Shown one piece after another: positions 4,917-52,757 of a stretch of 61,722 nucleotides of DNA. The notes under the pieces were generated by a model. That model had not been told where the DNA came from. It did no database searches and worked only from the letters and a program-made list of their open reading frames with translations. Source of the stretch: a virus. The position numbers and the translations under genes were made by a program. Positions within the stretch are counted from its first letter, which is position 1. Each line of letters begins with the position of its first letter. The stretch is taken from the IMG/VR virus record IMGVR_UViG_3300020578_000072, positions 1 to 61,722 of that record. One strand, given 5' to 3'.

Positions 4917-6416
4917 TCATAAGCGACTGGCCCATGAATCCATTTTACCCATTTTTATTTTAGCTTGACTTATGGCAACCTTGTACATATTCAACTTGGG
5001 CATTCCTATGCTATATGCATGAGCAAAGAATTTTTTTATGTCTAAGCTTTTGACCGCATCTAGTATCTTTTTTTTGCTGTCAGTCATAAATTCTGTAAAT
5101 TCCTGTCCATGTCTTTCATACGATTGCTCGGTCACGAAGGATTTCGTTCCAGCAATACTTCTGTAGGAAGACCATATGATGCCAAGCGTGTCGAAACCAA
5201 TCAATGTCATTCCTTTACTTTCCATCACTTCTTCCATGTAGAGATTGTCTATACTAGAGATGTATATAAGTATCTTTTGCACTGATTCTTTGTCCATTTT
5301 TTCATGATTTACCACGAATGGAGAAAGCAAACGCAAAATCATAAGTGTGGCACTTTGGGGGCTATAGGCATTAAAAATATGCCTGCTTTTCAGTGGCTCC
5401 AAACTGTGTTCTTTTTTCTGTATTCCTCCCATCGCAAGGGCAAGTGAAAAAAGGTTTTGCATTGCTGTTTTGCTCTTGGTTTTCGTGCAAATTTTAATAA
5501 GATATTCCATCAGCGTAGATTTTTCTTCGTAGCTGAACTCGCCAGTTCTACCGGGATCGGGTAGGCCTTTCCCGTGAATATCATATTTTTTACTATCAAA
5601 AATTTTAAGCATATGATGACTCAATACTTCTGCAATTGAGTCATTTATTGTTGCTCCCGGTGACATGTCGAAGAACAGGGCATTCACGCCGTTTCTGCCG
5701 TAAGAGGTAAAAGTATTCTTTTTATCATTGCTAAGCATCCAATTCATGGCATCGCCACTGCCATTCGGATTTTTGATAAGCCAGTGGAAAGAATCGTTCC
5801 TGTACCCCGTAAGCTTAGCTATTTCTAGCTGAATTTTGCTTGAGGTGTTTTGGTTTTTAAATAATGTTGCGTAGGTTTCCTCTCTGATCATCCATGACAT
5901 TTCGTTTCGTGAACCACTCGCTTTCTCCCTTTCATTTCTGTCCAATTCCCAAAATGCATCTATCATCTCAGTGCTTATGTATTTGCTTGAAATTAACACG
6001 ACCTGAGAATCCCTTGATCTATTTGGGCTATCTACCGCTAATGGCATGTAGGTCTCCATGAACCAATGAGCAAGATTTGCTCTTGTCTCATCGATTATTG
6101 AATGACGAGAGTACATCGAGTCTATGCCAAGGTCATCGAGCAAAAGTTTCTCAAGTGCCCAGTATGGTCCCCAGCTTCCTTGTATTCCCCATGGCTTAGC
6201 TTCCTTTCTCATACACCTAGAGAATGCAAGAGGAGCGTATCCAGATCGAATAAGTTCAACCACTGACGGATAGTTTTTCAATATATCTTCAGGAAAAAAA
6301 TCTTGGTAACCTGATTTTTTTCTTAGGTTAATGACAAATTTTGAGTATGCGAGTAGCTCATCATTTGACATTTCACATTCGGGCGATCCAGTCTGCGCAG
6401 ATTTGTACCACGTCAT
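4917..6416 (-). CDS. WYK-tagged solenoid (LRV-like) protein 1
   Basis: A 499-residue protein. It opens with the recurrent tag (MTWYKSAQTG) and then runs as a helical repeat protein. Recognisable repeat joints are IKNPNGSGDAMNWMLSNDKK near residue 211 and looser copies around it, in the style of variant leucine-rich repeats where NPN starts a helix pair. Its start overlaps the stop of 6413-7921 as ATGA, so translation is coupled. It is the last of three tagged paralogues in a row; two more lie at 11608-14168. No enzymatic motif seen. A scaffold, packaged internal protein or host-interaction solenoid is possible; none can be proved from sequence. Confidence 0.8.
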   Translation of the reverse strand: MTWYKSAQTGSPECEMSNDELLAYSKFVINLRKKSGYQDFFPEDILKNYPSVVELIRSGYAPLAFSRCMRKEAKPWGIQGSWGPYWALEKLLLDDLGIDSMYSRHSIIDETRANLAHWFMETYMPLAVDSPNRSRDSQVVLISSKYISTEMIDAFWELDRNEREKASGSRNEMSWMIREETYATLFKNQNTSSKIQLEIAKLTGYRNDSFHWLIKNPNGSGDAMNWMLSNDKKNTFTSYGRNGVNALFFDMSPGATINDSIAEVLSHHMLKIFDSKKYDIHGKGLPDPGRTGEFSYEEKSTLMEYLIKICTKTKSKTAMQNLFSLALAMGGIQKKEHSLEPLKSRHIFNAYSPQSATLMILRLLSPFVVNHEKMDKESVQKILIYISSIDNLYMEEVMESKGMTLIGFDTLGIIWSSYRSIAGTKSFVTEQSYERHGQEFTEFMTDSKKKILDAVKSLDIKKFFAHAYSIGMPKLNMYKVAISQAKIKMGKMDSWASRL

Positions 6417-7921
6417 AAACTTGCCCCCTTGTGCATTTCCAGGCTTTTGACAATAGTAAGTCTAATTGAATACAAATTAAAGCTACCTATTGTACTGCCA
6501 CGAACATCTATGAATTCATTCGGATTATCCTTAATCTTTTTCATAAATGTTTTAAAATCAAATCTTCTTAAAGCTCCATCAAAAGACTCCTTTAGTTTTT
6601 TGTTCGTGAAATTTCCGCTTATCTCCGCTTGATGTGAACCTTCTATCCCAGCGCGTGTATCAAAACTAGTCAGGCTAAGTATAATTGGAGCTATAGGAAT
6701 TCCAGCAGAGGAACCACTAGGATCCATTCCGAACGCATGCTGCTCAAAGTGATGCTTTATCAGAATCTCCATTAACTGCTGCACGTCTTCGTCTTTCAGT
6801 GCTGACTGCCTCATGACAAAACTCATAATCAAGTTGTGGGTCAGATAAGATGCAGGAAGAATTAATCCTCCCTTGCCAATTTTTGACACTGGCGATTGTT
6901 CTTCATTAGGTCTTGCCTTTATCAACGTTGCCTTCAGGTAGGTGTCGTAATTCCTCCTTATAGTCTCTGGATTCTTACTGTAAACATTCATCCACATTAC
7001 CAATTCCATCATCGGATACAGAGGTGCTGAGTCCATTGCCCTCATGGAGTCGAACATTGACGAATGCCACTGGCTGACAATCTTGTTTATGTACTCAGAA
7101 ACAACTTGAAGAACAGATTCATTCGGAGTCACTTTCCCAGTATGCGCAGATCTCCAACTCCACATCTTGTTAAAAATTCCATTGTTGGCATTTATCATTT
7201 TTGTCAAAGTGGAGTTTAAGTGAATTATGCCACCGGATAACATGGATTTCATCACATCTTGGTTCCCATTTGGGTTGCACATTAATCCAACCGCAACTTC
7301 AGCCGAATGAGAGTCTTGTGTGCTTGTCGCCATAATCAAATTTTTATTTTTTACCATGTCATCAAATATTTTTTTCTGCAACTCATGCGGAGAGTTGGGA
7401 TTGTTCATGACACCGTAGACCCAAGACCCAGCAACTATGGCAGAATTATATTCAGAAGTTTTTGTAAATTCAAGGACCCGCTCCAAAGATTCCTTGTCAG
7501 CAAGCCAGAATGGTAACCTTTCAGCCCACATTCCGCTCCTCAGTGATTTTAAATTTTCCATTGGAAACCGCCCCTTAAATAATTTTAACACCCCAGAAAG
7601 GTAAGCCATACAAGCAGAGCCATACCATCTGGATATGTTCTGGAGAGTCTCAGGTATATCCACGACTTTTTCACCCTTAGCAATACTTATCATCAACCCT
7701 TCCATGTCTCCTGGATTTGGCACTCTATATTCGCCTGTTGTGCTTGGATCAAGGGCAGAGCGCATGCAGCGCGACCATTCAAGTAGAGATTCCTGGTATC
7801 CCTTAGTATTAAAAAGAAAACTATTTTGTCTGCCCAACTGTTCGCCCAATTGCTTAAAATGGTCAAGTGTCATTTTGCAATTCCCTTGACTCTGTGATGT
7901 CTTGTACCAGTTAATCTTCAT
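6413..7921 (-). CDS. WYK-tagged solenoid (LRV-like) protein 2
   Basis: 502 residues from the ATG at 7921 (MKINWYKTSQSQ), chosen because it overlaps the preceding stop as ATGA, exactly like the next junction. After the tag the protein is helical with NPN joints (MNNPNSPHELQKKIF near 180, CNPNGNQDVMKSMLSGG near 217) typical of variant leucine-rich repeats. The spacing is irregular, so the solenoid is degenerate. It has no catalytic motif or membrane segment. It shares architecture and length with its neighbours 4917-6416 and 7918-9399, suggesting tandem gene duplication followed by strong divergence. Confidence 0.8.
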   Translation of the reverse strand: MKINWYKTSQSQGNCKMTLDHFKQLGEQLGRQNSFLFNTKGYQESLLEWSRCMRSALDPSTTGEYRVPNPGDMEGLMISIAKGEKVVDIPETLQNISRWYGSACMAYLSGVLKLFKGRFPMENLKSLRSGMWAERLPFWLADKESLERVLEFTKTSEYNSAIVAGSWVYGVMNNPNSPHELQKKIFDDMVKNKNLIMATSTQDSHSAEVAVGLMCNPNGNQDVMKSMLSGGIIHLNSTLTKMINANNGIFNKMWSWRSAHTGKVTPNESVLQVVSEYINKIVSQWHSSMFDSMRAMDSAPLYPMMELVMWMNVYSKNPETIRRNYDTYLKATLIKARPNEEQSPVSKIGKGGLILPASYLTHNLIMSFVMRQSALKDEDVQQLMEILIKHHFEQHAFGMDPSGSSAGIPIAPIILSLTSFDTRAGIEGSHQAEISGNFTNKKLKESFDGALRRFDFKTFMKKIKDNPNEFIDVRGSTIGSFNLYSIRLTIVKSLEMHKGASL

Positions 7922-9399
7922 AATTTCATATCCCACTCTACAACCATTGCTGCCTTGGGAGTTCCTGAAAACTTACTCTTAACCCATCGTAATCTTTTTA
8001 CAATAAGGGATTCACTGTATGCCCCCCACCTTACATGCCTATCCATACCTTTTTTAAATAAATCATTAAAAATACCCATAAGCTTAGAATCATGAATAAA
8101 TTTGTTTACAAAAGGCGTTGCCACCCCTTGTACCATTACGTCGTTGGAGTAAATATAATCTCCGGATATCATTTCTTCTAACTTATACAAAATATATTCT
8201 ATTTCTTTTTTAGTTGTAAACTTAGAGTCAGCCAATAAGCGTGCCACAACATGCGGAATTTGTGTTCTAGGATTTTCAAAAATTGATTTAAGCGCCACAT
8301 CGTATAATTCACGTGTAAAATTAGGATGGCTAAAAACCAATCTTTTCAAATCTGCATTTTCTTCTATGGCATCTAATCCATTTATCACGGGGCCCCGTTC
8401 ATCAAAAGTAATTAATGATTTTAAAACTGCAGGAGAAGCACCGTTATTCATCCCAATCAATTTAGGAAAATATGTATGTGAAGTAATTATATTACGATGT
8501 AAAGAGTTTTCTATCATCATAAGAAGCACTTTTTCAGGAGTGTTTGGATTTACGGCAACTGAAGTCAATTCAGACAAATACTCTTCTCTTTCTTTGGTAT
8601 TTTCTGCCCGGACTCCCATAAGAGAATGCCTAACATTACCCCCATGCTCAGCCGTTTCATTCATCATCTTGTTGATACGGTTAAAGTCAGCATTGTCATA
8701 AGAAACCGTACCTTTACTTATCCCTTCAATGGCCCGATCTTTAATCAAAGAAAGGCAACGGTCTTTAAATTCTTTTGATTCCTCTACAAATTTTCGATCT
8801 CTATTCGTTACCACACCAAACAATACATCATAAGACATGTTTTCTAATCTAAGATGATTATCTTTAACAGCTTCAACCAGAAGGTGGACCAATTTTACTG
8901 ATCTTGCCACAAATGCCAAAAACCAAGTTGGAGCAACAGGATTCATTACTGCATACTTAATTCTCCAGTAATTTGAGTCAAAGTCCTCGGAGGTAGGACT
9001 TCTCATCCAACGATGCATTATTTTATTGAAAATTTTGTCGGTAGCCTTTGGTGAAAAGGCTGCACGAGTATAAAATACTTGATGAGGACTATCAATCAAT
9101 TTCTCGAGAAGATCTTCGTCCATGTTCGGGTTACCAAAAATAAATAACTTTATGGTTTCAGGAAGTCTACCATCTTCTAAAATAAGCTCAAGGACATCAA
9201 CGCCTGTCTGCGGGTCCTCTACCAAAGCCTTGGCTTTTTCATAAGCAACAGGATCATGCCCACCACGGAACTCGTCAAATTTACCACTAATGCTACGGAG
9301 AAATGCAATGCGCTCCTCCGAGGACATAACCCGCTTATCCCCCCGGAACAATTTGCCCCAAAAACCACTCCCAGACTTCTTGTACCAATTGGATTTCAT
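7918..9399 (-). CDS. WYK-tagged solenoid (LRV-like) protein 3, first of the coupled trio
   Basis: 493 residues beginning MKSNWYKKSGSGFWGKLF. The repeat signal is clearest here: FGNPNMDEDLLEKLIDSP, VMNPVAPTWFLAFVARS, VAVNPNTPEKVLLMMIENS and FSHPNFTRELYDVAL, each an NPN/HPN turn followed by a helix, as in the variant leucine-rich repeat family. No Shine-Dalgarno site precedes the start, but a GACGATAAA element lies about 45 bases upstream. It leads an operon of three. Function unknown. The repeats argue for protein-protein contact and the tag for a shared destination with the other tagged proteins. Confidence 0.8.
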   Translation of the reverse strand: MKSNWYKKSGSGFWGKLFRGDKRVMSSEERIAFLRSISGKFDEFRGGHDPVAYEKAKALVEDPQTGVDVLELILEDGRLPETIKLFIFGNPNMDEDLLEKLIDSPHQVFYTRAAFSPKATDKIFNKIMHRWMRSPTSEDFDSNYWRIKYAVMNPVAPTWFLAFVARSVKLVHLLVEAVKDNHLRLENMSYDVLFGVVTNRDRKFVEESKEFKDRCLSLIKDRAIEGISKGTVSYDNADFNRINKMMNETAEHGGNVRHSLMGVRAENTKEREEYLSELTSVAVNPNTPEKVLLMMIENSLHRNIITSHTYFPKLIGMNNGASPAVLKSLITFDERGPVINGLDAIEENADLKRLVFSHPNFTRELYDVALKSIFENPRTQIPHVVARLLADSKFTTKKEIEYILYKLEEMISGDYIYSNDVMVQGVATPFVNKFIHDSKLMGIFNDLFKKGMDRHVRWGAYSESLIVKRLRWVKSKFSGTPKAAMVVEWDMKL

Positions 9400-9442
9400 A
9401 GAAATAATTAAATAATTTAAAGGAACTATCCTGTAAAATATC

Positions 9443-9452
9443 TTTATCGTCT
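9443..9452 (-). promoter_or_regulatory. Putative promoter element (GACGATAAAG variant)
   Basis: A minus-strand AGACGATAAA, a one-base variant of the recurrent GACGATATA motif, about 45 bases before the start of 7918-9399. It lies just after a terminator, as expected for a new transcription unit. Confidence 0.45.
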
Positions 9453-9465
9453 ACTCAAATTGTAA

Positions 9466-9488
9466 TAAAAAACCCCTCCGGAGAGGGG
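9466..9488 (-). terminator. Rho-independent terminator (minus strand)
   Basis: A six-pair GC stem, CCCCTC/GAGGGG with a four-base loop, followed on the minus strand by six T. It ends the operon carrying the PEP-CTERM gene. Confidence 0.8.
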
Positions 9489-9542
9489 CAAAAAGAATTA
9501 ATTTTTTCGGGGGCAAGAGACAGGCCTACTTCGCACTGTTTT

Positions 9543-9567: not shown

Positions 9568-9580
9568 TCTAAATTCATGC

Positions 9581-11607: not shown

Positions 11608-12576
11608 CTAATAAGGATCATTGTACTTGTGCACAAGTGGCATGCCAAGAATATTCTTCACATCATATAATCGATGCCTATACATCGAAAAAGTAGAGGA
11701 ATTATCAATAATACCAGCGGACGCCATTTTTCTGGTTAACTCAGCGCACTTTTTAGTAGTTTTATAATTAATTCCATAACCATAAGCAGTACCACTCTCA
11801 GCCCTAGCATGCATCATAAACATAATTTCCCATATTTGGGAAACAAAAGCTTTTGAAGAATAATCCTCTCCCGCACCCAAAATAGCAATATTATATAATT
11901 CTTTTTGAATTTCCTTATCGTGTGAAATAAAAGTTCTTTCAAAAAAATCAACAAAATTTTTAATTATATTTAATTGTTTGTCTTTAACATATTCGATAAA
12001 AGTGTTAACCGGTTCCCAATCATACATTCTGTCTACTGCGTCTGTGCGAGAATAATATGTCGTTCTATGCATGATCATTCTAATTACATTTAATGCGTAA
12101 ATAGAATCATGAATATAAGCAGTAAAATTTGATTTTTCATCATAACTACTCAATTTTTTATTAGCATTTTCAAAAATTTTTACTAAATTTTCGTATGAAT
12201 TTGTATTAATAAGTTCGCGAGTAATTTTCTTCCATTCCATGTTTTGACATCTAAACTTGAAAGCTTGCCAGTTAATTTCTGTCATTTCAAAGATGATATC
12301 TTCGGGAGTGTTGGGATTAATAGTAATACTAATAATAGTATCTTCTATGCTCTTGCAACGACTGCCAAGTTCGCCATCAGCAGCTATACTGGCCATATTG
12401 ATTTTAATATCTTCCATTCCTGACTTAACATCTTCCCACGCGGCGGTAAGCATAGGAGGAGGACAGTCTGGATTTTTTATGTACTTCTTGTAGTCATCAG
12501 GATTTGCACTAAAAAACTCAAAAGGCACAAAACGATTTGCCCTTTTGATCCAGTTAGTGGGTTTGGGCTTTCTCAT
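11608..12576 (-). CDS. Tagged solenoid (LRV-like) protein 4
   Basis: 322 residues from the ATG at 12576 (MRKPKPTNWIKRANRFVPF), chosen because it overlaps the previous stop as ATGA and has AAGGA upstream; an ATG six codons earlier is also open. NWIKRA is a variant of the WYK tag. A variant-leucine-rich-repeat joint is visible at TINPNTPEDIIFEMTE (about residues 85-100), and a weaker one at KNPDCPPPMLTAAWEDV. The rest is helical with no catalytic motif. It is coupled to 12573-14168, forming a second pair of solenoid genes after the trio at 4917-9399. Confidence 0.75.
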   Translation of the reverse strand: MRKPKPTNWIKRANRFVPFEFFSANPDDYKKYIKNPDCPPPMLTAAWEDVKSGMEDIKINMASIAADGELGSRCKSIEDTIISITINPNTPEDIIFEMTEINWQAFKFRCQNMEWKKITRELINTNSYENLVKIFENANKKLSSYDEKSNFTAYIHDSIYALNVIRMIMHRTTYYSRTDAVDRMYDWEPVNTFIEYVKDKQLNIIKNFVDFFERTFISHDKEIQKELYNIAILGAGEDYSSKAFVSQIWEIMFMMHARAESGTAYGYGINYKTTKKCAELTRKMASAGIIDNSSTFSMYRHRLYDVKNILGMPLVHKYNDPY

Positions 12577-14168
12577 AAAGAATCCTTTTGCCATGTGCCA
12601 CGAGAAATCATTGATCTCACTTCACTCAGTCTTTTAATAATGAATCTATTTCTAAAAGAGCCTCCACCAATTGAAATTATTTTTCTAACTACTTCAGGAC
12701 ATTTTTTATTTTTTGAATCAAGAAACAAAAGCGGATAATTGTTGTCTGAAGGAAAAAACAAAATATTCTGAATATTCCAACTACGGGACTCATTATTAAG
12801 TAATTCTCTGTGCTTCAATATCCAGGAATCTAAAAGAGAAGACTGGGATTCACAGTTTATTCCTCTATCTATGCAACATTTAATCCACCTATTAATGTTC
12901 ATAGAAAGTGTTGATGTTTCAAATATTTCTTCTTTAATAACATATTTATCAAATACGTATTTAAATAAATGAAAATTGTTGCTGCATGCTGTATGCAAAT
13001 GCTGAAACGCACTTAATTTACCCATACTTTTAAAAAGCAAATCCACAAACTCTTCTGATATTCTCCCTGTATCCATGACTAATTTTAAAAGATCGTGAAT
13101 TAAACGGTATTTATAAATATTATCACCTGCATCATTTAAAATAATTTTGAAAAAATTAACTCTTGCTTCCTCGGTTTTGGCTCTTTTTGCCATTGCGTTT
13201 AAAACATAATATTTATACCCTTGAAATTCTTCATAATCCCTGTGTCCAGGAGAACTATGGTATTGACGAAGAGAATTTATTTTATTAAAAAAATCAATAA
13301 ATTGTTGAGAGAAAAAAAGCTTTTCTATCTTTTCGTCCTCAAAATTTACCGATTCAACCATTCCTATCATTGCTTTTAAGCGATTATCAATTTGAGCATC
13401 ATTGATACCATCGGTTTTTGAAATACTTCCTGAAATAATACCAGCAACATGACTGGCTCCAACACCCTCACTTTTGACAAAACTTGATACAACCTGAGGA
13501 TTCAAGTGCTGGTTTGTAATTTCAAGTCTTTCATCAACATTTATAAAACGATTACTTACTAAAGAAGACATCAAATCATCACCAATAGTAGCAATTTCCT
13601 TTCTCTGATAATCATATCCGTAATAATGTTGTGAGCCTGAAATTTGACTAAAGGAAGATGCAATATTTATTATTTTATTTTGTGATTTTTTTGTAACATT
13701 ATGCTTGGAGGAAGCATTTTTTAAAAATTCACCATATTTTGAATAAATTTTCAATATTAAATCATGCCTGTCATAGTTATATGATCTTAGGGGAGTTTTA
13801 TTTACCTCATCAAATATCAACTCCAAATCATCAACCAATTTAGAAATAATTTCTTTAGACATAATGGGATTATCTGACATGGCAGTTAAAATGCCAATAC
13901 TGCTTTCTTCCTTACAAGAAACAGTGTAACCTGAGTAAGTGTCGCTTTTGATGTAAGGCTTAGTTATTTCGTACACATACTCCTGAACTTCTTCATGAAG
14001 GTATGGATTCTGTGCCGCCAACACAAGACCAACTTCTTTGCCTATGTGCTTGTCGCCATGAATAATCATCATTTGATGATCTTTGTCTTTGACTGTTTTT
14101 GCGTATGCCTCCATACTCAATTGTCCAGCCATAGCTCTTTTTAGCCAGTTGTGAACCATTAAATTCAT
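12573..14168 (-). CDS. Tagged solenoid-like protein 5
   Basis: About 531 residues. ATGs at 14168 and 14159 both put the tag variant VHNWLKRAMAG at the front; a longer frame upstream is not supported by a ribosome site. The protein is helical with repeat-like joints (AQNPYLHEEVQEYVYE, MSDNPIMSKEIISKL, NQHLNPQVVSSFV) in the same NP/NPN style as the other members. No membrane or active-site motif. Located first in its operon. The assignment to the solenoid group is by pattern, not by overall similarity. Confidence 0.75.
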   Translation of the reverse strand: MNLMVHNWLKRAMAGQLSMEAYAKTVKDKDHQMMIIHGDKHIGKEVGLVLAAQNPYLHEEVQEYVYEITKPYIKSDTYSGYTVSCKEESSIGILTAMSDNPIMSKEIISKLVDDLELIFDEVNKTPLRSYNYDRHDLILKIYSKYGEFLKNASSKHNVTKKSQNKIINIASSFSQISGSQHYYGYDYQRKEIATIGDDLMSSLVSNRFINVDERLEITNQHLNPQVVSSFVKSEGVGASHVAGIISGSISKTDGINDAQIDNRLKAMIGMVESVNFEDEKIEKLFFSQQFIDFFNKINSLRQYHSSPGHRDYEEFQGYKYYVLNAMAKRAKTEEARVNFFKIILNDAGDNIYKYRLIHDLLKLVMDTGRISEEFVDLLFKSMGKLSAFQHLHTACSNNFHLFKYVFDKYVIKEEIFETSTLSMNINRWIKCCIDRGINCESQSSLLDSWILKHRELLNNESRSWNIQNILFFPSDNNYPLLFLDSKNKKCPEVVRKIISIGGGSFRNRFIIKRLSEVRSMISRGTWQKDSL

Positions 14169-16591: not shown

Positions 16592-17293
16592 TCACAAATT
16601 AGACATTTTACTGTCCCATATTTTGAATATTTTATTTTTCAGTATATTTTTTATAAAATTTTCAAAAGACTTATCGCTAGAATTAATTTTTTCAATCTCA
16701 TTTATCAAATCATAAATTTTGTTTTCGTCTAAATTTTTTAATTCTTCCAAAACTTCTTCTAGACCTTTTTGTCCACCAAGTTTGAATTTATGATAACAAA
16801 TTAAGGCAAAATCAAACACAGGATATATCTGTATGTTTATCTTTTGTTTTTTATCTTTTTTGTTTTCATACCAAGGTGTCCTGTCAAACAAAGACAAAAG
16901 TTGAGGATTTTTTTCTCCGTTTTTATCAACGCAAAAATTTGGAATATTGGCCAGAGAAGGAAGAGCCTTGTTGTACTCTGCATGAGTTGGGAAGCATCTG
17001 TAAATATACATTACGATGTCTTCATTTTCTTTGCACTGAAAATACATCACTCTTGGCTTATTGAGATATGAAACTTCTAACTTGTGAAGATTTTTTGTCA
17101 GAGTAAATGAACCTACATTGTGAGGCCAGTTTTTAATAGAATCCATAATAGCTTGTTTTCTTGTTTTATCCATAGATTCCAAATCTTTGTTGGCTTTATG
17201 TGAAAAAAATATTCTAACAGGAAAATCTGCCGGATCCAAAGAATGAATCATTGTAGACTTTATCTGTGCAGTCTTATACCAATTGAAAAACAT
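16592..17293 (-). CDS. WYK-tagged protein with a RelE/ParE-like domain
   Basis: 233 residues. The tag is MFFNWYKTAQIKS. Residues about 25-110 fit a RelE/ParE toxin fold: a strand and two helices (VRIFFSHKANKDLESMDKT), then HKLEVSYLNKPRVMYFQC, then a strand with IVMYIYRCFPTHAEY. Many RelE-like proteins cleave mRNA at the ribosome and ParE-like ones target gyrase; which applies here is not visible. No adjacent antitoxin gene stands out. The C-terminal 120 residues are helical and unassigned. The start lacks a Shine-Dalgarno site (AATATAAATTAAT precedes ATG). Moderately sure of the fold. Confidence 0.6.
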   Translation of the reverse strand: MFFNWYKTAQIKSTMIHSLDPADFPVRIFFSHKANKDLESMDKTRKQAIMDSIKNWPHNVGSFTLTKNLHKLEVSYLNKPRVMYFQCKENEDIVMYIYRCFPTHAEYNKALPSLANIPNFCVDKNGEKNPQLLSLFDRTPWYENKKDKKQKINIQIYPVFDFALICYHKFKLGGQKGLEEVLEELKNLDENKIYDLINEIEKINSSDKSFENFIKNILKNKIFKIWDSKMSNL

Positions 17294-19072: not shown

Positions 19073-19835
19073 TCTGTACACCTCCAGAACTAGATAAAGA
19101 TGACCTTAAATTTTTTAATATTTCTTTTATTTTATCTACTCTTTCTTTACCACCAGATGCCTTATTGCCAGCACTGTCTCCATCATAGTAACCTTTTCCT
19201 GAAGTTGTGGGTAGAGAAGCGAATTCTTTAGCCAAATCGTTCACTGCGGCATCAATATCGTCGCTTTTGCCTTCAATATAAGACATCAGAGAGGGTCTCT
19301 TGTACAGCAAATACATGAATAGCTTTTCTTGGTTTTGAGGACTAAATACATCGCTTTCTTTTAGTCCTATTTTTTTATTATTTATGGCTTCTTTTAAGGT
19401 AGCAGGTATCATCTGATATTTTCCCACAGCGAACATTTTTCGATTTGCCTGCATTTGCATAATTTGACCAATTGTAAGTTTAGTTATGTCTATTTGGGGG
19501 ACAGTTGTGTCTCCAGCTTTGCCCCTGTTATAAGCACCATAGTTACCCTCTGTTCTTGATATTTCTTTTTTAAGAGCCTCAAGGACCCCAGATTGAGAAA
19601 CAATTGGGGTTTTCTGAACGGGCTTTGATATCTCTTCCAAATTGACGGAAGGTATTTTTAGTATTTGACCAGGTTTAATTATGCTGGGATCTTTAATGTT
19701 GTTTAAAGCCTGTATCTCTGGCCACCTGTTAACATTATTTAATAATTTTTTAGAAATACCAGATAGAGTATCTCCCTTTTGAACAACATATGTTATTTCA
19801 GATTGTTGTGATTGAGATATTTTAAACCAATTCAT
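19053..19835 (-). CDS. Endolysin: tag, LysM domain, lysozyme-like muramidase domain
   Basis: 260 residues from the ATG at 19835 (MNWFKISQSQQS). After the tag, residues about 13-62 form a LysM peptidoglycan-binding domain (YVVQKGDTLSGISKKLL, then IIKPGQILKIP). Residues about 85-240 form a lysozyme-like domain: SRTEGNYGAYNRGKAGD with a likely catalytic Glu, and MFAVGKYQMIPATLKEAI, the pattern of phage muramidases of the lysozyme superfamily. It would cut the glycan backbone during lysis or entry. No signal peptide, so release depends on a holin such as 17774-18211. The shared tag with structural-type proteins leaves open that it is virion-borne. No Shine-Dalgarno site. Confidence 0.8.
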   Translation of the reverse strand: MNWFKISQSQQSEITYVVQKGDTLSGISKKLLNNVNRWPEIQALNNIKDPSIIKPGQILKIPSVNLEEISKPVQKTPIVSQSGVLEALKKEISRTEGNYGAYNRGKAGDTTVPQIDITKLTIGQIMQMQANRKMFAVGKYQMIPATLKEAINNKKIGLKESDVFSPQNQEKLFMYLLYKRPSLMSYIEGKSDDIDAAVNDLAKEFASLPTTSGKGYYDGDSAGNKASGGKERVDKIKEILKNLRSSLSSSGGVQNAGKTK

Positions 19836-24174: not shown

Positions 24175-24471
24175 ATGAACTGGTACAAAACAGCATCTTT
24201 AAATGAATGGTTTGGCAAGGGAAAAAAAGGAGACTGGGTGAACATATGCCGCAAAAACAAAGACGGCTCATTCCCTCCGTGTGGAAGATCTAACGCTGAC
24301 TCAGGAGCTTACCCAAAATGCAGACCGAGATCCAGTGCAAAGTCCATGTCGGAAAGCCAAAGGCAATCTGCATGCTCCAGAAAAAGAAAAGTCGAAAATA
24401 AATCAGATAATTCCGGTAAGGCAAGATCTCCTAATTTTGTCAGAACGTTTACAAAGAAAAAGAAAAAATAA
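24175..24471 (+). CDS. WYK-tagged basic protein, DUF5872-like
   Basis: 98 residues. The tag MNWYKTASLNEWF is followed by GKKGDWVNICRKNKDG, then PPCGRSNADSGAYPKCRP, then an SxSQR helix and a lysine/arginine-rich end. The order WV-(I)C, CGR, YPKC matches a short family of basic proteins (DUF5872-like) found in phages and giant viruses. The Cys pairs may hold zinc and the basic tail may bind DNA. No Shine-Dalgarno site precedes the ATG. Followed ten bases later by another basic protein gene. Confidence 0.7.
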   Translation: MNWYKTASLNEWFGKGKKGDWVNICRKNKDGSFPPCGRSNADSGAYPKCRPRSSAKSMSESQRQSACSRKRKVENKSDNSGKARSPNFVRTFTKKKKK

Positions 24472-24480: not shown

Positions 24481-25017
24481 ATGCAAAATAACACACCAAA
24501 CCTAATAAATTGGAAATCTTTTATGGAAAAAATGGGCGGAATGAAAAAGACCGCCCAAACTGAAGACCCCAAAAAAGAAATGGGACAATTTGACTCACAA
24601 GGAAATCCGAAACTTGTAATTGATTCCAAAGGCCAAGAATTCAGACCAAGGTCAGGACTTGAGGGCCCATTCGTGGGAAAAAGCGGAATGGCTTATTACT
24701 ATGATCCTAAACAAGGAGAGTACTACTGTCCATACCATGACATGTATACAAAAACTCCTATGCACGATGTAGAGAAATACGCTCTTAATTACGAGTCCTT
24801 TATGGAAAAAGAAGCAGCAAAAAAGGGATCAAAAAAACCAAGGGGTAAGCAAAAAGCAAAACCAACAAATCCATCTTTGTGGTCAAGAGCAAAGTCTCTT
24901 GCCAGAAAAAAGTTTGATGTATATCCTAGTGCCTACGCAAATGGCTGGGCTGCAAGATGGTACAAGCAGCATGGCGGAGGATGGAGAACAACATCAAGTA
25001 AGAAAAAGAAAAAGTAA
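24481..25017 (+). CDS. Basic protein with an SLWSRAK...YPSAYANGWAARWY C-terminus
   Basis: 178 residues. The N-terminus (LINWKSFMEKMGGMKKTAQ) contains a stretched version of the tag: NW-K then KTAQ. The middle is Gly/Tyr-rich with a Cys-Pro-Tyr-His element (YYCPYHDMYTKTP). The C-terminal 45 residues (SRAKSLARKKFDVYPSAYAN, then GWAARWYKQHGGGW) are a motif seen in many phage and giant-virus proteins, linked to the DUF5872-like group of the previous gene. The lysine-rich linker suggests nucleic-acid binding. AAGGA precedes the start, and the stop overlaps the next start. Confidence 0.7.
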   Translation: MQNNTPNLINWKSFMEKMGGMKKTAQTEDPKKEMGQFDSQGNPKLVIDSKGQEFRPRSGLEGPFVGKSGMAYYYDPKQGEYYCPYHDMYTKTPMHDVEKYALNYESFMEKEAAKKGSKKPRGKQKAKPTNPSLWSRAKSLARKKFDVYPSAYANGWAARWYKQHGGGWRTTSSKKKKK

Positions 25018-26231: not shown

Positions 26232-27887
26232 TCACTTATATATAAAATGATCCACTATCTCTCGAAGAGTAGATTCTTTATCATCTCTAAAAAGCAATTC
26301 TTCCTCTTCTGCTGGAAGTATCTTTTGAGTAATCAAAGATCTAAAATTTTGAGTAATCTTGTCTTTTGCAGACGACATTGAACCAAGACCTGGAAAAATA
26401 TTACTTAATATATCTTTAAAAATACCATGAAGTTTTGGGTCAATGTCCTCGATATAAGACTCAACTCTAGCTGCATAATCTTCTTTTGCACCAGGTTTTT
26501 TTAGAATTTCTGGAATTATACCAATAGTTGCAGCTGACTCCATTCCACTTTTACTTCTAACAATATCTTCTTTAAATCCTCCAGATGTTACTGAAGAAGC
26601 AAGATCTACTATATTGTCAAATGAGTCAATCTTCTTTTTAACTGCATCTAAAACAAAATCTACTTTGGGAAATATTTCTCCAGGGCTTTTATCTTTGTTG
26701 TCTCTATACCATTGGAAAGGCGCATCTCCATTTACACCGCCGCTGTATCCAAACTTTGATCCTGGTTCAACTTTTATGTTATCTTTGCTCATAATATCAA
26801 TAATTTGAGATAAATAACCCCATGGAGGAGAATTTTGATGACCCACACATTCTTGATAAGAACCGTTTGGTTTCTGAACTATAGCAACAACTGCCTGATT
26901 CACACGACCAGACTGATCTAAAGCTTGGCCCTGAGGAAAATACAAATAAAATTTTATTGATAAAGATAAATAGTGTTCTGCTGATGTGTTACCCGTGCAC
27001 CATCCAGTACTTTGACTGGCAGCAAACAGAAGTGCATGATTTTTAGAAGACTGGTTTTCAGCTCCCTGAAAAGGCCCATTTTCTTTTGTAAATTTTTCGT
27101 TGCACCAACGATTACTTGCTTTGCCATACAAATAAAACCAGCCAGGGGACGAAGTTTTCACAAAACCACAAATACCACCGGATTCATTTTGAATCTCATC
27201 AGAATGCACAACTCCTTCTACCGCTTGAGCACCGGACTGCTCATAATTAGAGAATTTATTAAGTTTAGATGTGTCATTTTCACACTCATGGAAAAAAAGC
27301 TCAACTCTGCCCATATCAAATTTTCTAACATCCTTAATATACCACTGTTCTTTTCCTTTTACGGCTCCAATCATTGACCTAACAAGCAAATAAACAAAGT
27401 CTCCTCTTCCTGCAAAGCCACCACCTCGCATACCCTCAGTAAGACCATTCTTCCATTCTAAAATAGCTGAATTTTGTTGCTGAGAAGACCAATTATTGTC
27501 AAACTTCATTTTCATAGCGCCATTTTCAAAATCAACAAAATATTTTTCCATAGCCATGGAAAATAATTTATTATTTATGTCCTGTATGTGTCTATAGATA
27601 TTTCCAGACTGACCTTTTAACTCTTGTTCCGCTACAGTCAAAGCTCTTATAAATATTTTGTTATTCTTTATAACTGAGACATTATTTTTAAGCCCATCCA
27701 TCCTGAGGTTTCTTTGTTCCTCTGTTTCATTAGGTACTTTTTCCTGAAAAAGTTCTTTAAATGTCTTGCCAGTACCGGGAACCTCTAAATTTTTTATAAA
27801 ATAATCTTCAACAGCAGCGACTTTAATAAGTGAATTTTCCTGTTGAGAAACGAAACTAGAATATTTTTTAAAATTAAATTTGCCCAT
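26232..27887 (-). CDS. Tagged protein with an STGWCTGN core, unknown function
   Basis: 551 residues. The start MGKFNFKKYSSFVSQQENS is a loose form of the tag (aromatic, Lys, Ser/Ala, Gln). The central part (AASQSTGWCTGNTSAEHYL, then KFYLYFPQG, VAIVQKPNG and CVGHQN) resembles a pattern found in uncharacterised phage proteins: W-C-T, an aromatic strand, then a polar strand and Cys/His. An invariant-looking Cys in WCT invites a catalytic role, but none is proved. The C-terminal third is helical. AGGAG precedes the ATG; a GACGATAAA element lies about 60 bases upstream and faces a plus-strand copy. Confidence 0.6.
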   Translation of the reverse strand: MGKFNFKKYSSFVSQQENSLIKVAAVEDYFIKNLEVPGTGKTFKELFQEKVPNETEEQRNLRMDGLKNNVSVIKNNKIFIRALTVAEQELKGQSGNIYRHIQDINNKLFSMAMEKYFVDFENGAMKMKFDNNWSSQQQNSAILEWKNGLTEGMRGGGFAGRGDFVYLLVRSMIGAVKGKEQWYIKDVRKFDMGRVELFFHECENDTSKLNKFSNYEQSGAQAVEGVVHSDEIQNESGGICGFVKTSSPGWFYLYGKASNRWCNEKFTKENGPFQGAENQSSKNHALLFAASQSTGWCTGNTSAEHYLSLSIKFYLYFPQGQALDQSGRVNQAVVAIVQKPNGSYQECVGHQNSPPWGYLSQIIDIMSKDNIKVEPGSKFGYSGGVNGDAPFQWYRDNKDKSPGEIFPKVDFVLDAVKKKIDSFDNIVDLASSVTSGGFKEDIVRSKSGMESAATIGIIPEILKKPGAKEDYAARVESYIEDIDPKLHGIFKDILSNIFPGLGSMSSAKDKITQNFRSLITQKILPAEEEELLFRDDKESTLREIVDHFIYK

Positions 27888-28791: not shown

Positions 28792-31700
28792 TCTATAAGC
28801 TCATCTAGCTCTAAATCATAATTATAATTTTGGATAAGGAATCTATGGAGTATTGACTTGAATGGCTCCTTTAGTTCCTCTCCGTTTTCATCCATATATT
28901 CTTTTCCCGTCGTGCTCATAAAAGCAGATATTGCAGATCTAATTCTCTCCAACTTAGAGTATTCACCATCTGCAGAGTCATCATCTGCAGAGTCAAATTC
29001 TTCAGATCCTCCCATAATTTGGGAGTGTGTCTTAAAAAAAGCCTTCAGCTTTTCAACATATATATTTTTGTTAACAGGCCCGCTTTTTATAAATTCAGCA
29101 TACCTCTCTCTTATCTTTTGTTCAAGATCACTTTGACTTATTGCTCCTCTTCTGAACTGATCAAGTAAATCAGATATATTGACATTAGAAAAGTCATTTT
29201 GAGCAAGTTTTATTGTTTTATACCATGATTTTGCGTATTTTGGCATTCTATTTCCTAAATCTAATTTCCACCATACACTATTGTTAAATTTTACTTTCTC
29301 CATTTGATGTTTCAAAGCCTGATCGTCATAAACCTTCTTAAACATCTCAAAAGTTTCTTGAGTTGACCACCCTGTCCACAACTTATGCAAAGTTGAAGCA
29401 CCTACCAGATAAAGAGCTTTGATCTCAAGGTTATTGCAATATCTAAATATCTCATTGTAAAATATTTCTAGCCAGTCTTCGAATCTATTTTCTATTCTTG
29501 ACTTAAACTGAGACAAATGAGGCCTATTTAATTGAGGAGATTTGTCTTCTGATTTTCTATCCGATATTGAAGAAATCTGCTTTTCTATTTCAGCAAGATT
29601 TGCCTTAAGCTTTTCTAATTTTTGTTTATCTTGCTGATTCGGGTCTATCCCGCTAACCATTTGATTACGTATTGCATCTATTGCGACCCTTAATCTTTGC
29701 TTCATTTGCTCGTCTGAGGAAGAGTTTATTTTATTTTCTAATTCTTTTATTTTATTTTCAAAATAACTTTTATTATCAAAAGATTCAATCTTTGAGCTTA
29801 AAGAAGATATTTCATCAATCAATTTATTTTTTTCCTGTTCAAGCCCAGACATACTAGCTTGAAAATCTCTCATTCTATAAGTCTTTTGAACAACATCACT
29901 CTGTATTTCCGTGACATACATAGTTTTATTTAACCAGTCTATTCCTCCGCCAACCCAACCAAGAAAATTATAATATCCTTCTGGCGTCTGGTCTCTAGTG
30001 AGACCTCTATGATGATAATTTATGCCGCCGTCACTATCCCCATTATCAAAAACAACATTCATTCCCTTGGGATCTTTTTCACTATGTTTAGGATGTATGA
30101 CTATATTAAATGGCTCTAAAATTTCCGAATAATGCCTTATTTTAGATGAGTGATTTGCAGCATCTGAAACAACAACGTTTGTAGCGTGCTGACCAGGGAA
30201 GGATCTACCAAGATTAATAAAAGACTTAAAATTAAAACCTTTATCAAAAAGACCCATTTCCTTGGCTATACGGACACCATCATCTCCAAAATCTTTATAA
30301 ATCAATTCTGGATTAGAAAGATATTTTTGCTTTTCTTCTGTTATTTTTTTTCTTAAAGATTCTTTTTCAACTATTGCTTTAGATTCTTCTTCAAATTCTC
30401 TCTGTCTTTGTTCCTCGGCCCTTTGTCTAAGGATTCTGTCTTGTTCGTCCTGTGCTCTCCTTCTCTCTCTGGCCTCCTCTATTAACCTAATTCTTTCTGG
30501 AGAGTTGCCAGCAACATCTCTCATAAATTTTTGTGAATCTTCAGGACTCATGTAATGAGAAGCTTCTGCAAATATTTCATCTTGCTGAACTATTGCGCTT
30601 TCATCAAGAGAAGAAGTGTAAGCAGATGATTCTTCAGAGAAAACTTCTTTTAAAACTGGATCTGAAGATATTACAAACTTGATGGCATCTGAATATTTTT
30701 TTATAGTTTCAATAAATTCACTATGCTTTTCATCTATATAAAAGCTATCTGCATGCTCCCTCAATTCTTCTGCTATATCAGTCCATTCGTCAATACCAAT
30801 CTTGGAAACAGGCTGAGATTCATCTACGGATATTGTGCCTGAATCTTCTCCTGTAAAATAAATCCACCTGTCTTTGACAATTCTTTTAGTAATAGGTTGA
30901 AAATGATGATGAGCAAATCCAGTCAAATTAGCATCACTACCAAGATACAACCTTGACAATCTTGCATTGTAACTATGGAACTCTTGAGCACTACTGTCTG
31001 CGTGGTTTTCAGCTTCGCTCCTAAGCCAATCTCTTTTATTGTCATCTATCCACCTCTTTTTTGCGCTATCTTCATAATTTGATTTTAAAACATCTATAAT
31101 TTCACTATCTGAATTCATATGTTCTACTTCATCAGCATATATACCGGCAAGATAATCAATTAAATGTTCAAAAAATGTTTCCAGCTCTTCCTGAGAAAGA
31201 GATGGCCTGCTATTGAATGGCATGCCTATTTTTTCATAGAATTTTTGAGAAAAAAAACTAGATGGATTTATGTTATGCTTTTTTGCCCTATTAGATGGAT
31301 GACGGTGATCAGGGATTATTTTAACGTATTCTATGTCAGAAATTAAAGCATTCAGAAAATTGTCTTCCAGGATGCCTTGTATTATTGTTTGTACTGGTAT
31401 AATATCAGGATTGTAATTTTCAGCGTAGGATCCAGAACAACTTTCCAAAAGAGAAGACATACTTGCACTAAAGTTGCCATCATAGAAATTTGATATTATA
31501 GTTTGTTTAATTTCATCCTCATTGGCTACAGAGCCTATATAATGAAAGAAATTATCACTTTCATCCCAGTAATCATCATATGATTCCATCCAGTAGTCAT
31601 CATTATCTAGCCATTCATAAATTTTATCATAATCAACTTCAAAATCCCAATTTTCGTCCTCAAGAGCATTACGCATGCCACCAAATGCAGATAGAATAAA

Positions 31701-31842: not shown

Positions 31843-32106
31843 TTATTTAAATGATTTTATGCTATTTTGAAGGTTTCTAACCTGAGTAATTATTGCTCTT
31901 GCTTGTGTTGACCTTGGATCTTTTATTTGTTCAAGCTGACCAGCCAATTGATCAAAACCATTACCAATATTTTCTAGATTATTAAGATTTTGAAGACCCA
32001 TTTGCTGAATAAATTTAGGAACATCTATATTTATAGAAACAGCGTCCCCCATAGAACCAGGCATGCCTTTTAAATCAACCTGTGATAATTTAAATAAATT
32101 TTTCAT
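31843..32106 (-). CDS. Tagged small helical protein, 87 residues
   Basis: Begins MKNLFKLSQVDLKGMPGSMG, where NLFKLSQ is a tag variant. Then come a strand (AVSINIDVPKFIQQMG) and two helices (NLENIGNGFDQLAGQLEQI, QARAIITQVRNLQNSI). It is one base from the start of the 1017-residue gene and precedes it in the transcript, so the two products may work together, for example as a small partner or scaffold. No Shine-Dalgarno site. Confidence 0.6.
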   Translation of the reverse strand: MKNLFKLSQVDLKGMPGSMGDAVSINIDVPKFIQQMGLQNLNNLENIGNGFDQLAGQLEQIKDPRSTQARAIITQVRNLQNSIKSFK

Positions 32107-46296: not shown

Positions 46297-47055
46297 ATGT
46301 ACAATAGAATATTATTCAACAAATATGCTTCAGAATCCATGGTAATACCAGGAATAGAAGAAACATGCGCTTTTTTAGACAGATTTAAAAAATGCCTTTT
46401 TATTACTACAAGTAATAGGGTTGTTCATAATGATGTTGATACGGAAATGCCCAAATCATCTCAACTTGCGCATGTAATATCACATAAACTAAAAAGATGC
46501 GAAGCATCAATAATAGATGTATCTAAGCTAAAAATATATATATGCGAGGGCAATATATCTAAAGCAGAGGGAAATAATTGCGGGGTAAAAGAAGCATCCT
46601 TAAAAGATAAAGACAAAAATCCAGATGGAAATTTAAGATGCTGGTGCTCATTCAACCATAAAGATGATGAACTTTGGAAAATACATAAGCCCATGATGGA
46701 TAGTGATGCAATAGTATTTTTTACATCCATAAGATGGGGGCAAACCAATAGTGTATACCAAAAATTACTTGAGAGATTAAGTTGGATAGAAAATAGACAT
46801 ACAAGTTTAAAAGAAGAAAATATAGTTTCTGAAAAATACGCTGGAGTAATAAGTTGTGGGCACAACTTTAATGGGAAAGAAACAATAGAACTTCAAAAGA
46901 AAAATATGAAATATTTTGGTTTTAAAATAGATGATAGGCTTTTTTGGTCATATCAATACACAAATGATTCCAAGGATGAAAGACTAGAAGGTTACATAGA
47001 CGATGCAAATAAATTTGAAAAACTAGTTCAAATTTCTGTTAAAAAAACAGATTAA
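46297..47055 (+). CDS. Tagged flavodoxin-like protein (NADPH-dependent FMN reductase fold)
   Basis: 252 residues. The start MYNRILFNKYASESMV holds a tag variant (LFNKYAS). Then come the flavodoxin-like steps: CLFITTSNRVVHNDVDTEMP (phosphate loop), LAHVISHKLKRCEASIIDVS, the strand DAIVFFTSIRWGQTNSVYQK (about 133-152, the flavin-binding W-G loop) and LLERLSWIENRH. The fold reduces FMN or quinones using NAD(P)H. A Cys-rich insertion (GNNCGVKEASLKDKDK, RCWCSF) is unusual. It starts one base after the previous stop. Confidence 0.7.
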   Translation: MYNRILFNKYASESMVIPGIEETCAFLDRFKKCLFITTSNRVVHNDVDTEMPKSSQLAHVISHKLKRCEASIIDVSKLKIYICEGNISKAEGNNCGVKEASLKDKDKNPDGNLRCWCSFNHKDDELWKIHKPMMDSDAIVFFTSIRWGQTNSVYQKLLERLSWIENRHTSLKEENIVSEKYAGVISCGHNFNGKETIELQKKNMKYFGFKIDDRLFWSYQYTNDSKDERLEGYIDDANKFEKLVQISVKKTD

Positions 47056-47626: not shown

Positions 47627-47632
47627 TATTTA

Positions 47633-49303: not shown

Positions 49304-49323
49304 TTTTTCTCCTTAATTAAACA

Positions 49324-51153: not shown

Positions 51154-51197
51154 TTTTAATCTCCAAAATTTATTATTTATATTATATATAAAAACTT

Positions 51198-52757
51198 TTA
51201 CATAATACCCTGTTTTGACATCCTGATTTTTATTTTTTCTATTATTTCGTTTGCTTCATTTCTTACACTTTTAAGAGAGTTAACAACCTCTTCTTTTTCC
51301 ATTTTTGACCACATCCTCATATAAAGAATGCAAGACTGCTCAAAATCAAAAGGAATTTTAAAATATTTCAAAACCATATAAGATATACCCTCTGCCTGTA
51401 TCTCACCAGCTGCATATGATTTTATGTCTCTTTTTTTTCTGTATTCTTGAGTATGCACTATTTCATGTGTCATTTCATGTATTATTGTTGAAAGAGCCCT
51501 TACTCCAGAAGAGTTTGAATTTATATTTATGTTGCCATCAGAATGAGAAGTACCCATAGACTTACCCTGACCAGCAAAATTAACTTTTATTTTGTAATCT
51601 TCCTCTGCCACATCAATCACTGCCTCTGTCATTTTATCTACATACTCAGAAGTATCATTAGTTCCGTAAATTTCTTGATTTTTAGAAGGATCGTAGTGGT
51701 CCCTTCCAGGTATTGGCTCAGTGAAACGAACGTCATATACAACATAATCTGTAAATTTAGATACATTTATAACTCTATTGTCTTTTCTTTTTATTACAGG
51801 CTCAGGAACACCCTGAGCTCGTAAAGAAGCCTTTTCTTTATCTGTTAGCTTAATTACAGTACCAACAGGCCTAATAAGCACAACAGGAATAGCACCTGGC
51901 TTTAGCTTTCTTCCAAAATCAGAATCCCATTGAGATGCCGTTGCAACCTCACTAGCTTCAGGATCCTGAAGATACATAAGTATTTGATTATTGAAACTAA
52001 AGTGATTAAAAACAGCTTGAAAATTTAGGAATTTTTTCAATGCCTCTACTTTTGCATCAGTATCTTTTGAGAAAATCTTTTCTGATATTTCATTGACAAA
52101 ATTTTCTATCATAGAAGAAATGCCAAAAGTAGTATTATTTGAAAGTATTTCACCTCTTATTTGAGATGCCTGCTTGACATCAGTGTCCTCATTAACTTCC
52201 TCAATAACTTCATTTATAAAATTTACACCAAGACCAACTAATTTTTCAAACTCTTCTTTATTTAATTTAAATCTTTTAGCCCAAACAGGTGAATACTTTT
52301 TGTTGTCAGGACCAGGATAAATTGTTTTTTTAAATCCAAAACCCATGGCAGAAAGTGTATCTTTTATTGGCTTAGTTTCTCCTGAAATAACAGTAGAATT
52401 TGAGGATGAATCAAAGAATCCGGTTATGCCATCATTTGATAAAGCTATAGACTCAATTTTATGAGTGTTGACCAAGTTTACATCAACTGAAATATCTGAA
52501 AGAGATTTTTTTATTAAATCTATAGAAGATATTCTGCTTGCGCCCTGAATCCATCCACCAGAAACATCTTCTCCATCAACAGAAACTTGAAGGTTCCCAG
52601 ACCAAGAGAAACCCAAAGATTTTATTTTTTCTTTTATAGAAAATGTTTGACCAATTACTGCGTATGTGTCAACTTTTATTGGCGAAAGATTCGCAGGTAA
52701 AAATATAAGACTTGGCTTTATTGCAGAAAATTTGAATAAATTAAACTTGCGAAACAT
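51198..52757 (-). CDS. Tagged ArdC-like antirestriction protein with tandem N-terminal modules
   Basis: 519 residues. The start MFRKFNLFKFSAIKP holds a tag variant. Two short modules follow, each with I/V-G-x-T, a helix with IKxxLxxxGF and an aromatic end (about 32-75 and 125-175). About 205-320 match the ArdC N-terminal DNA-binding domain (FNNQILMYLQDPEASEVATA, then WDSDFGRKLKPGAIPVVLI). HEMTHEIVH near 427-435 and the later EIQAE give a zinc metalloprotease site. ArdC proteins bind single-stranded DNA and protect incoming DNA from restriction. A tagged form could be packaged and injected. No Shine-Dalgarno site. Confidence 0.8.
   Translation of the reverse strand: MFRKFNLFKFSAIKPSLIFLPANLSPIKVDTYAVIGQTFSIKEKIKSLGFSWSGNLQVSVDGEDVSGGWIQGASRISSIDLIKKSLSDISVDVNLVNTHKIESIALSNDGITGFFDSSSNSTVISGETKPIKDTLSAMGFGFKKTIYPGPDNKKYSPVWAKRFKLNKEEFEKLVGLGVNFINEVIEEVNEDTDVKQASQIRGEILSNNTTFGISSMIENFVNEISEKIFSKDTDAKVEALKKFLNFQAVFNHFSFNNQILMYLQDPEASEVATASQWDSDFGRKLKPGAIPVVLIRPVGTVIKLTDKEKASLRAQGVPEPVIKRKDNRVINVSKFTDYVVYDVRFTEPIPGRDHYDPSKNQEIYGTNDTSEYVDKMTEAVIDVAEEDYKIKVNFAGQGKSMGTSHSDGNININSNSSGVRALSTIIHEMTHEIVHTQEYRKKRDIKSYAAGEIQAEGISYMVLKYFKIPFDFEQSCILYMRMWSKMEKEEVVNSLKSVRNEANEIIEKIKIRMSKQGIM

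Follow-up and report, generated by a model that had tools for sequence, protein, structure and literature searches.

The encapsulation peptides of bacterial microcompartments and encapsulins are short, lie outside the fold of their carrier and are found at the N-terminus, at the C-terminus or between domains. Polyvalent proteins combine domains such as ART-PolyVal, PcfJ, MPTase and SNF2 in fusions. They have been proposed to be injected (PMC9503650). In phage T4, about ten N-terminal residues (as in IPII and IPIII) are reported to target core proteins and also foreign proteins into the head, where the head protease digests the core (PMC9958956). In phage P1, packaging of DarB, a large anti-restriction protein, is described as directed by its N-terminal 30 residues, which also bring a reporter into the head; by BLAST the Dar proteins are reported to have no consensus in common (PMC9024508). 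For SPN3US, nine head proteins are said to share the motif of the gp245 protease, with several sites inside propeptides that are mostly 111–254 residues long, two being of 20 and 24 (PMC10052503). How giant phages choose the proteins that they pack and inject is an open question, and only a minority of their genes have an assigned function. Here a short peptide is described that recurs on many unrelated proteins encoded by the linear virus record IMGVR_UViG_3300020578_000072 (61.7 kb, analysed over its whole length of 61,722 nucleotides and called the window below) and by a group of huge tailed phages. This peptide, referred to here as the tag, has the form N-[W/L]-[Y/F/L]-[K/R]-x-[A/S]-[Q/S] and is probably a signal for loading proteins into the phage head, with the cargo then injected.

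The original prediction had listed ten tagged N-termini in the window, and all are found there: the frames are open, an ATG lies at or inside the predicted coordinates and the starts read as described. Nine are on the minus strand: MTWYKSAQ at 6393..6416 in the open reading frame (ORF) 4917–6416 (499 residues), MKINWYKTSQ at 7892..7921 (ORF 6413–7921), MKSNWYKKSG at 9370..9399 (ORF 7918–9399), MRKPKPTNWIKRA at 12538..12576 (ORF 11608–12576), MNLMVHNWLKRAMA at 14127..14168 (ORF 12573–14168, whose start is also read as MNLMVHNWLKRA), MFFNWYKTAQ at 17264..17293 (ORF 16592–17293), MNWFKISQ at 19812..19835 (ORF 19053–19835; the homolog in contig G003 has MTWYKMSQ), MKNLFKLSQ, with NL in place of NW, at 32080..32106 (ORF 31843–32106), and MFRKFNLFKFSA at 52722..52757 (ORF 51198–52757), which belongs to a second form, FNLxKx[AS], that had gone unrecognised. 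The tenth, MNWYKTAS, lies on the plus strand at 24175..24198 (ORF 24175–24471). The distance from the ATG to the tag differs among these ORFs. Looser forms had been proposed at three further places, and they look real where homologs exist. On the plus strand at 24481..24558 (ORF 24481–25017) the tag is split, LINW...MKKTAQ, and both halves are retained by its G002 and G003 homologs, LINW being followed downstream by a K-x-A core (MKKTAQ, LVKTAS, LIKVAA); LFNKYASE at 46297..46338, also on the plus strand (ORF 46297–47055), corresponds to KYAQ or SLAQ within residues 1–17 of the G002 and G003 homologs. The third is FNFKKYSS ... LIKVAAVED at 27804..27887 on the minus strand (ORF 26232–27887). A weak tag-like start, MKFNLSRYNRTKEAS, was seen by eye at 1078..1122 on the minus strand (ORF 613–1122). 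Is such a recurrence more than chance? Gapped patterns of three residues were sought without supervision in residues 1–16 and compared with 20 controls made of internal pseudo-N-termini; NW.K came first in the window, with five proteins against 0.08 expected and a score of 15.7 (best control, 12.4).

The bodies behind these starts are unrelated at the sensitivity of BLAST, as no match at E≤1e-4 links the tagged proteins of the window. Several of the folds originally assigned to them were recovered. The muramidase corresponds to a LysM/endolysin protein (ORF 19053–19835), and the flavodoxin-like fold to an FMN_red match (E=7e-7; ORF 46297–47055). The RelE-like fold is reduced to a weak match (E=0.005; ORF 16592–17293); the ArdC-like protease gave a moderate anti-restriction/M78 match and is here called anti-restriction-like, with M78/MPTase-PolyVal weak (ORF 51198–52757). 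The solenoids, for which the ORFs starting at 4917, 6413, 7918, 11608 and 12573 are the candidates, drew no Pfam match at all. The AlphaFold model of the endolysin is poor, with a mean predicted local distance difference test score (pLDDT) of 53.5, and a search for its relatives returned a single locus, that of the window's own phage. Tblastn against phages gave no match for the 46297 protein and two partial, weak ones for the 51198 protein.

The tag reaches well beyond the window. A near-identical contig of 146.7 kb (G030) holds the window from base 38 on (99.9–100% identity), and the 106 proteins of its remaining part add six tags at N-termini, where 0.12 would be expected, and one at a C-terminus (0.03 expected). 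An exact DNA pattern for M-N-W-Y-K-x-A-Q has 33 matches, in 27 stretches of 23 other viral contigs; the looser NW[YF]K has 149 occurrences in these contigs and its reversed control 15, the 33 matches by which they were selected being among the 149. Gene starts in the contigs come from a simple caller and are uncertain, and the N-terminal zone was therefore set to 45 residues of the longest frame. By this measure, and as the original prediction expected of related phages, the motif is far commoner at N-termini than chance would have it: 1639 proteins from 13 records including the window hold 103 copies of NW[YFL][KR] near the N-terminus where 1.3 would be expected. As many as 22 of these copies are matches by which 12 of the records were selected. 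The form FNLxKx[AS] was found at 10 N-termini against 0.4 expected and 7 times internally against 1.05 (14 records). Taken singly, G001, G002, G004, G005, G008, G021 and the window each have a part of the tag as their best pattern, above controls; in a ranking by pattern alone it also comes first in G010, G012 and G018. Some of the records were chosen by the presence of the tag, and coverage extends to base 60000 of 60251 in G003, to two parts of G005, to parts of G011 and G022 and to 300,000 of the 308,711 bases of Tunturi_5, a distant relative. Tunturi_5 was tried as a third coded lineage and rejected, as no pattern exceeds its control and only single cases such as KSRLLKKAT (in a 1494-residue ORF) were seen. 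With phage T4 as positive control, the pattern K.Y...I was detected yet stayed below the null (10.7 vs 15.4), so the method is insensitive to codes carried by few proteins; two of the seven T4 proteins listed with this pattern begin MKTYQEFI, which we take to be the capsid-targeting sequence. Across 84,980 cellular genomes the MNWYKxAQ DNA pattern turned up at four places, treated as chance because in one of these genomes the looser NWYK is rarer than its reversed control (4 vs 16).

What kind of phage carries the tag? One NWYK-tagged contig of 548 kb, G018, has terminase and tail genes, and its major capsid protein shares 55% identity with gp27 of Bacillus phage G, of which it is a relative. 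This homology, taken as the mark of phage-G-like phages, is established for G018 alone. Phage G has a different form of the tag, KRLxKx[AS]. Its top N-terminal pattern, RL.K/KRL, is found on 30 proteins against 3.2 expected and scores 40 against a control maximum of 19.6; starts like MKRLIKKAS stand on at least seven proteins with an HGTS-type start resembling that of ADP-ribosyltransferases (ARTs), as judged by eye. At least ten ARTs were counted in phage G by Iyer and colleagues (PMC9503650). Phage G, G028 and G029 together have 919 proteins, 24 of them with a strict KRL N-terminus (0.1 expected; the latter two were chosen by a KRL-type pattern), as against none of 1882 proteins in 14 NWYK records, and NWYK is at background level in the KRL records (1 vs 0.85). 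Considered alone, G028 is barely above its control for KRL and G029 is not. The tag thus exists in lineage-specific versions, neither of which exceeds background in the other group. One homologous family bridges the two: it starts MNWYKQTQ in G021, whereas the start is MKRLMKKS in the phage G member and MSRLKKVA in that of G028 (E of 4e-4 and 4e-5, over 46–61 residues); its G029 members (MKRLIKKA/S) are linked through those of phage G and G028. Searches of a subset of PubMed Central, from which subscription journals are mostly absent, gave no title or abstract describing either tag, and no phage paper of that subset contains the literal strings MNWYK, NWYKKAQ, NWYKTAQ or MKRLIKK.

Selection acts on the peptide. 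Ninety NW[YF]K tags are encoded by 13 distinct 12-mers and 35 KRL tags by 15 distinct 9-mers, in which AGR and CGN as well as TTR and CTN codons are all used; it is this synonymous variation that points to the amino acids. In an alignment of 93 tag-selected proteins, MNWYKxA is the sole conserved block. In four homologous kinases MNWYK is invariant, while the linker behind it differs widely in length, and in the AlphaFold model of one of them (the one good model) residues 1–10 have a mean pLDDT of 49 and the remainder about 90; its nearest solved structures are polynucleotide kinases. The tag is a short peptide, fixed in position and by lineage group, on many unrelated proteins.

Which proteins carry it? 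A list of 181 loosely defined tagged proteins, which includes chance entries, falls into 131 BLAST clusters, of which 105 have a single member. Under a stricter pattern, limited to 700 residues, 166 remain, and thinning of one G012 paralog family to 156; nine of these belong to the window, and the Pfam tallies cover the other 147 (93 NWYK and 54 KRL-type), at least 82 of which, reckoned from the tallies, have no Pfam match. For the 93 NWYK proteins, the 25 families listed out of 32 include AAA_33 (4), GNAT (4), cREC (2), ART-PolyVal (2), G6PDH, Tad6 (4.5e-35), Acb1 (2e-5), LysM, HicA, polyA polymerase/CCA-adding enzyme and 2'-5' RNA ligase. Among the PHROGs matches (25 of 70 listed) there are also endolysins, RNA ligase and a single match to DNA primase, and SNF2 helicases are likewise tagged. 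The KRL-type proteins match ParB_N, nucleoside deoxyribosyltransferase, SLOG, PARP and others in Pfam. Ninety-three untagged controls, matched by record and roughly by length, yielded LAGLIDADG, phosphoesterases, glycosyltransferase, helicase, IF3, HNH and one NADAR among the 25 of 50 families listed. This is a contrast of kind rather than a statistical one, and ART or similar domains may occur among the control families beyond those 25. The anti-Thoeris protein Tad6 is a tagged G010 protein (MNWYKQAQ...), and the frame of the G020 copy has VWFKEAL near its putative start. In Tunturi_5, ART-PolyVal domains lie in ORFs of 1279–1501 residues, two of which also contain relatives of separate tagged proteins of G005. 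As a side observation, an array of small tagged paralogs (NWYKxIKLALPV...DIGH; 11 in one BLAST cluster, many head to tail) occupies positions 69505–76808 of G012.

The tag is not restricted to N-termini, a feature that the original prediction overlooked. T4-type targeting is N-terminal only, and here nine copies of NW[YFL][KR] fall in the last 25 residues of the 1639 proteins against 0.8 expected, with nine elsewhere in the proteins against 4.7. Two SNF2 helicases, 29% identical, both end in a tag (...NTNWYKISR in G030, 993 residues; ...NNWYKQARSQ in G008, 1041 residues). So do a PcfJ protein of G018 and a 1056-residue protein of G010 with an ART-like start (by eye; no Pfam match). In the window, a 1017-residue ORF on the minus strand (28788–31841) has an internal tag between domains, SWYKTIKLAQ, at residue 872 (29199..29228). 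Its G003 homolog of 904 residues starts MQWYKFAQ and ends at the matching point with NWYKHTKCGAAR, soon after NWYKHTK. A cut after the A/S of the tag would leave C-terminal tags largely in place, which suggests that docking rather than removal is the main role. Two gene arrangements may be mentioned here: at 114878–117581 of G018 a C-terminal tag lies about 30–40 nucleotides from the N-terminal tag of the next gene, as if duplicated at the border, and at 45742–51205 of G003 two successive tagged ORFs overlap, end to start.

Further evidence comes from the putative head maturation protease. Protease profiles match gp19 of phage G, gp331 of Tunturi_5 and an 1868-residue protein of G018; the profiles are phrog_2774 and phrog_18299. 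The profile phrog_2774 matches 12 of the 23 NWYK contigs, with no match in the other 11, the window or G030, all classed as linear and often fragments. Pfam finds no protease family in the proteins that PHROGs labels as head maturation proteases. Profiles of S77 (gp21) and of the Gp23 major capsid protein matched nothing in 28 records, and that of Gp23 nothing in the window, the control genomes being equally silent, so that absence does not follow; Iyer et al. 2021 likewise report no S77 for the group with phage G (PMC7824862). The 12 proteases begin much as the tag does: MAMYKRAT (G018), MAMYKIAR (G005, with another ATG further upstream), MAFYKTAT (G010), MTMYKKSS (G020), MGFTKRAS (G022), MSFMKKAK (G008), MAIDKKAN (G004), MIYKFAL (G001), MLYKHAL (G011), MLIKVAL (G006 and G013, identical over the part read) and MLRKIAL (G009). 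Scored with the tag profile among the proteins of each record that lack the W of the tag, the protease ranks first in three of ten records (1/38 in G005, 1/121 in G010, 1/149 in G020), then 3/37 (G001), 4/14 (G011), 5/62 (G022), 7/47 (G004) and 7/237 (G008), and is within the top seven in nine; as the proteases are homologous, the ranks depend on one another. Ahead of the catalytic domain, all but one of the 12 have a second hydrophobic-[KR]-x-[AS] site, the exception being G020 with EKFAS there. The G018 protease contains nine hydrophobic-K-x-[AS]-[SQATN] sites against 1.1 expected, the strongest excess of 749 proteins, followed by a neighbour in the head module (3 vs 0.15); outside N-termini, K-x-[AS]-type sites are at chance in the G018 proteome (89 vs 84). 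A G018 protein encoded between terminase and protease has internal FNLKKAQ, FNLKKTAQ and FNWKEAQ.

How could such a peptide work? From the peptide pattern and the protease match we infer docking, packaging, cutting and injection. During assembly, the tag would dock its protein onto a component of the prohead core, either the scaffold or the maturation protease; the docked protein would be packaged along with the DNA, delivered to the next host and act early against host defence or physiology. N-terminal tags may be removed by the head maturation protease, since their hydrophobic-K-x-[AS] core resembles the candidate sites in the phage's own protease. As the tag is short, lies outside the fold and is usable at either end, adding it would let a phage recruit almost any domain. 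The sorting or packaging signal originally proposed is thus the best-supported reading, favoured by peptide conservation, unrelated bodies, lineage versions, cargo and the start of the protease; packaging, cutting and injection are the parts of it that stay conditional. A wider proposal is evenly balanced: that several huge-phage lineages each have a peptide code of their own, N-terminal, C-terminal or between domains, which loads dozens of effectors including counter-defence proteins into the head, that homologs switch code between lineages, and that the code alone would list the injected arsenal. If true, a readable tag gives a list of candidate injected proteins (166 by the stricter pattern, some by chance), among them recognisable anti-Thoeris, anti-CBASS-like and ADP-ribosylating proteins, and tags could load chosen proteins into very large capsids. 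Bacillus phage G, long cultured, carries its own version, which makes the idea directly testable.

Several results weigh against a head-loading signal. A literature search found no virion proteome of these phages. G6PDH, the CCA-adding enzyme, LysM/endolysin and the DNA primase match are not obvious injected effectors. The SNF2 homologs of G003 (...INGWYNFIKNT) and G002 (start MINLFKLAD) have no canonical tag at their ends, and those of phage G and Tunturi_5 no tag. The tag pattern is not significant alone in G003, G009, G029 or Tunturi_5. Among the proteases, that of G009 ranks 25/82 and that of G018 4/671, with the second site, NQIKTAS, and not the start as its best window. The excess of sites within the protease is unclear in G001 (5 vs 2.1) and G010 (3 vs 1.25), and N-termini show hardly any enrichment of the narrow site pattern (14 vs 9.2 in G018, 14 vs 9.8 in phage G). 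The gp19 protein of phage G starts MIKYTFPVKIAG and not KRL, which limits the match between protease and tag to the NWYK group. Lastly, phage G is reported to have no phiKZ-like inner body (PMC5646251); a dispersed cargo is compatible with this.

Could the tag be chiefly a cut site of the head protease, a propeptide, with packaging determined elsewhere in each protein? The concentration of hydrophobic-K-x-[AS] sites in the G018 protease and one head-module neighbour, and the second site that 11 of the 12 proteases from NWYK contigs have ahead of the catalytic domain, would fit; C-terminal tags would survive the cut, however, and conservation is highest in the N-W-Y that precedes the K-x-A core, beyond what a bare cut site needs (partly by construction, the tags being chosen by W and K). 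This makes a propeptide unlikely, if the foremost of the alternatives. Only slightly more doubtful is sorting to another phage-made site in the cell, such as a replication compartment, a membrane or a phage nucleus: some of the tagged enzymes of metabolism and RNA repair could act late, whereas the head maturation protease has a tag-like start too and the cargo resembles proteins proposed as injected (ART, PcfJ, SNF2, anti-restriction). A role of the tag in degradation, stability or enhanced translation, as an N-terminus favoured for highly expressed late proteins, would agree with its being short and mostly N-terminal, and is improbable given the C-terminal copies, the group-specific sequences and the lack of a tag on the major capsid protein in G018, phage G and Tunturi_5, which is presumably highly expressed too. 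Conservation of the nucleic acid, in which a start-region, promoter or recombination sequence incidentally encodes NWYK, might be read from the head-to-tail tagged genes with overlapping starts and from the purine-rich stretch upstream of KRL-group genes, and is very improbable in view of the synonymous variation, the use of both six-fold codon families in KRL tags, the C-terminal and internal copies, the variable distance from tag to ATG and the lack of any shared upstream sequence beyond A-richness in NWYK genes.

Other features of the window and its contig deserve a brief record. Positions 21916–23991 hold nine transfer RNA genes and a transfer-messenger RNA gene (Rfam RF00023, 122 bits) with the predicted tag peptide DNYQFNSYRIGFTQFRLAA. 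At 10009–10701 lies a protein with a PEP-CTERM-like C-terminus (by eye, PAPGAFALGMVSFVFGTSRRRK), typical rather of bacterial surface proteins. Many genes at 32507–45331 and 52794–57217 resemble, by eye, those for glycosyltransferases, methyltransferases and sugar-nucleotide enzymes, and suggest a surface-sugar programme. A 97-nucleotide repeat, 82% identical, occurs at 33200–33296 and 33957–34053; its second copy lies outside the listed ORFs and looks like the remnant of a duplicated gene. The protein encoded at 49324–51153 has a C-terminal part of low complexity, long and rich in serine, whose DNA contains short repeats. In G030, guanine-cytosine content rises from about 0.31 to 0.45–0.55 mid-contig (about 60000–104000; in the window, the end at 1–12000), which may mark a separate module of the genome or a joint in the assembly.

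How, then, does the tag compare with the systems described at the outset? It is like the T4 capsid-targeting sequence in being a short N-terminal peptide common to otherwise unrelated proteins, and unlike it in that the NWYK and KRL sequences differ from the MKTYQEFI start and C-terminal tags exist. The T4 and P1 analogues sit on one or two proteins. As with DarB of P1, SNF2 helicases and an anti-restriction-like protein are among the carriers; unlike in the Dar proteins, one peptide is widely shared. The SPN3US protease motif reportedly ends in E, while here the site is K-x-[AS] within a tag of about eight residues, and the protease profile is different. The domain repertoire overlaps with that of polyvalent proteins, yet many of the tagged proteins are single-domain, mostly short and each with its own tag, the long ORFs being those of Tunturi_5. 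With encapsulation peptides the tag shares its place at either terminus or between domains and, in the one good model, outside the fold; its proposed destination is a phage head and not a metabolic shell. By function the tag would work like the signals of T4, P1 and SPN3US, yet it is a member of none of them: its sequence, the number of its cargo proteins and its occurrence at both ends set it apart, and so does the protease as far as tested.

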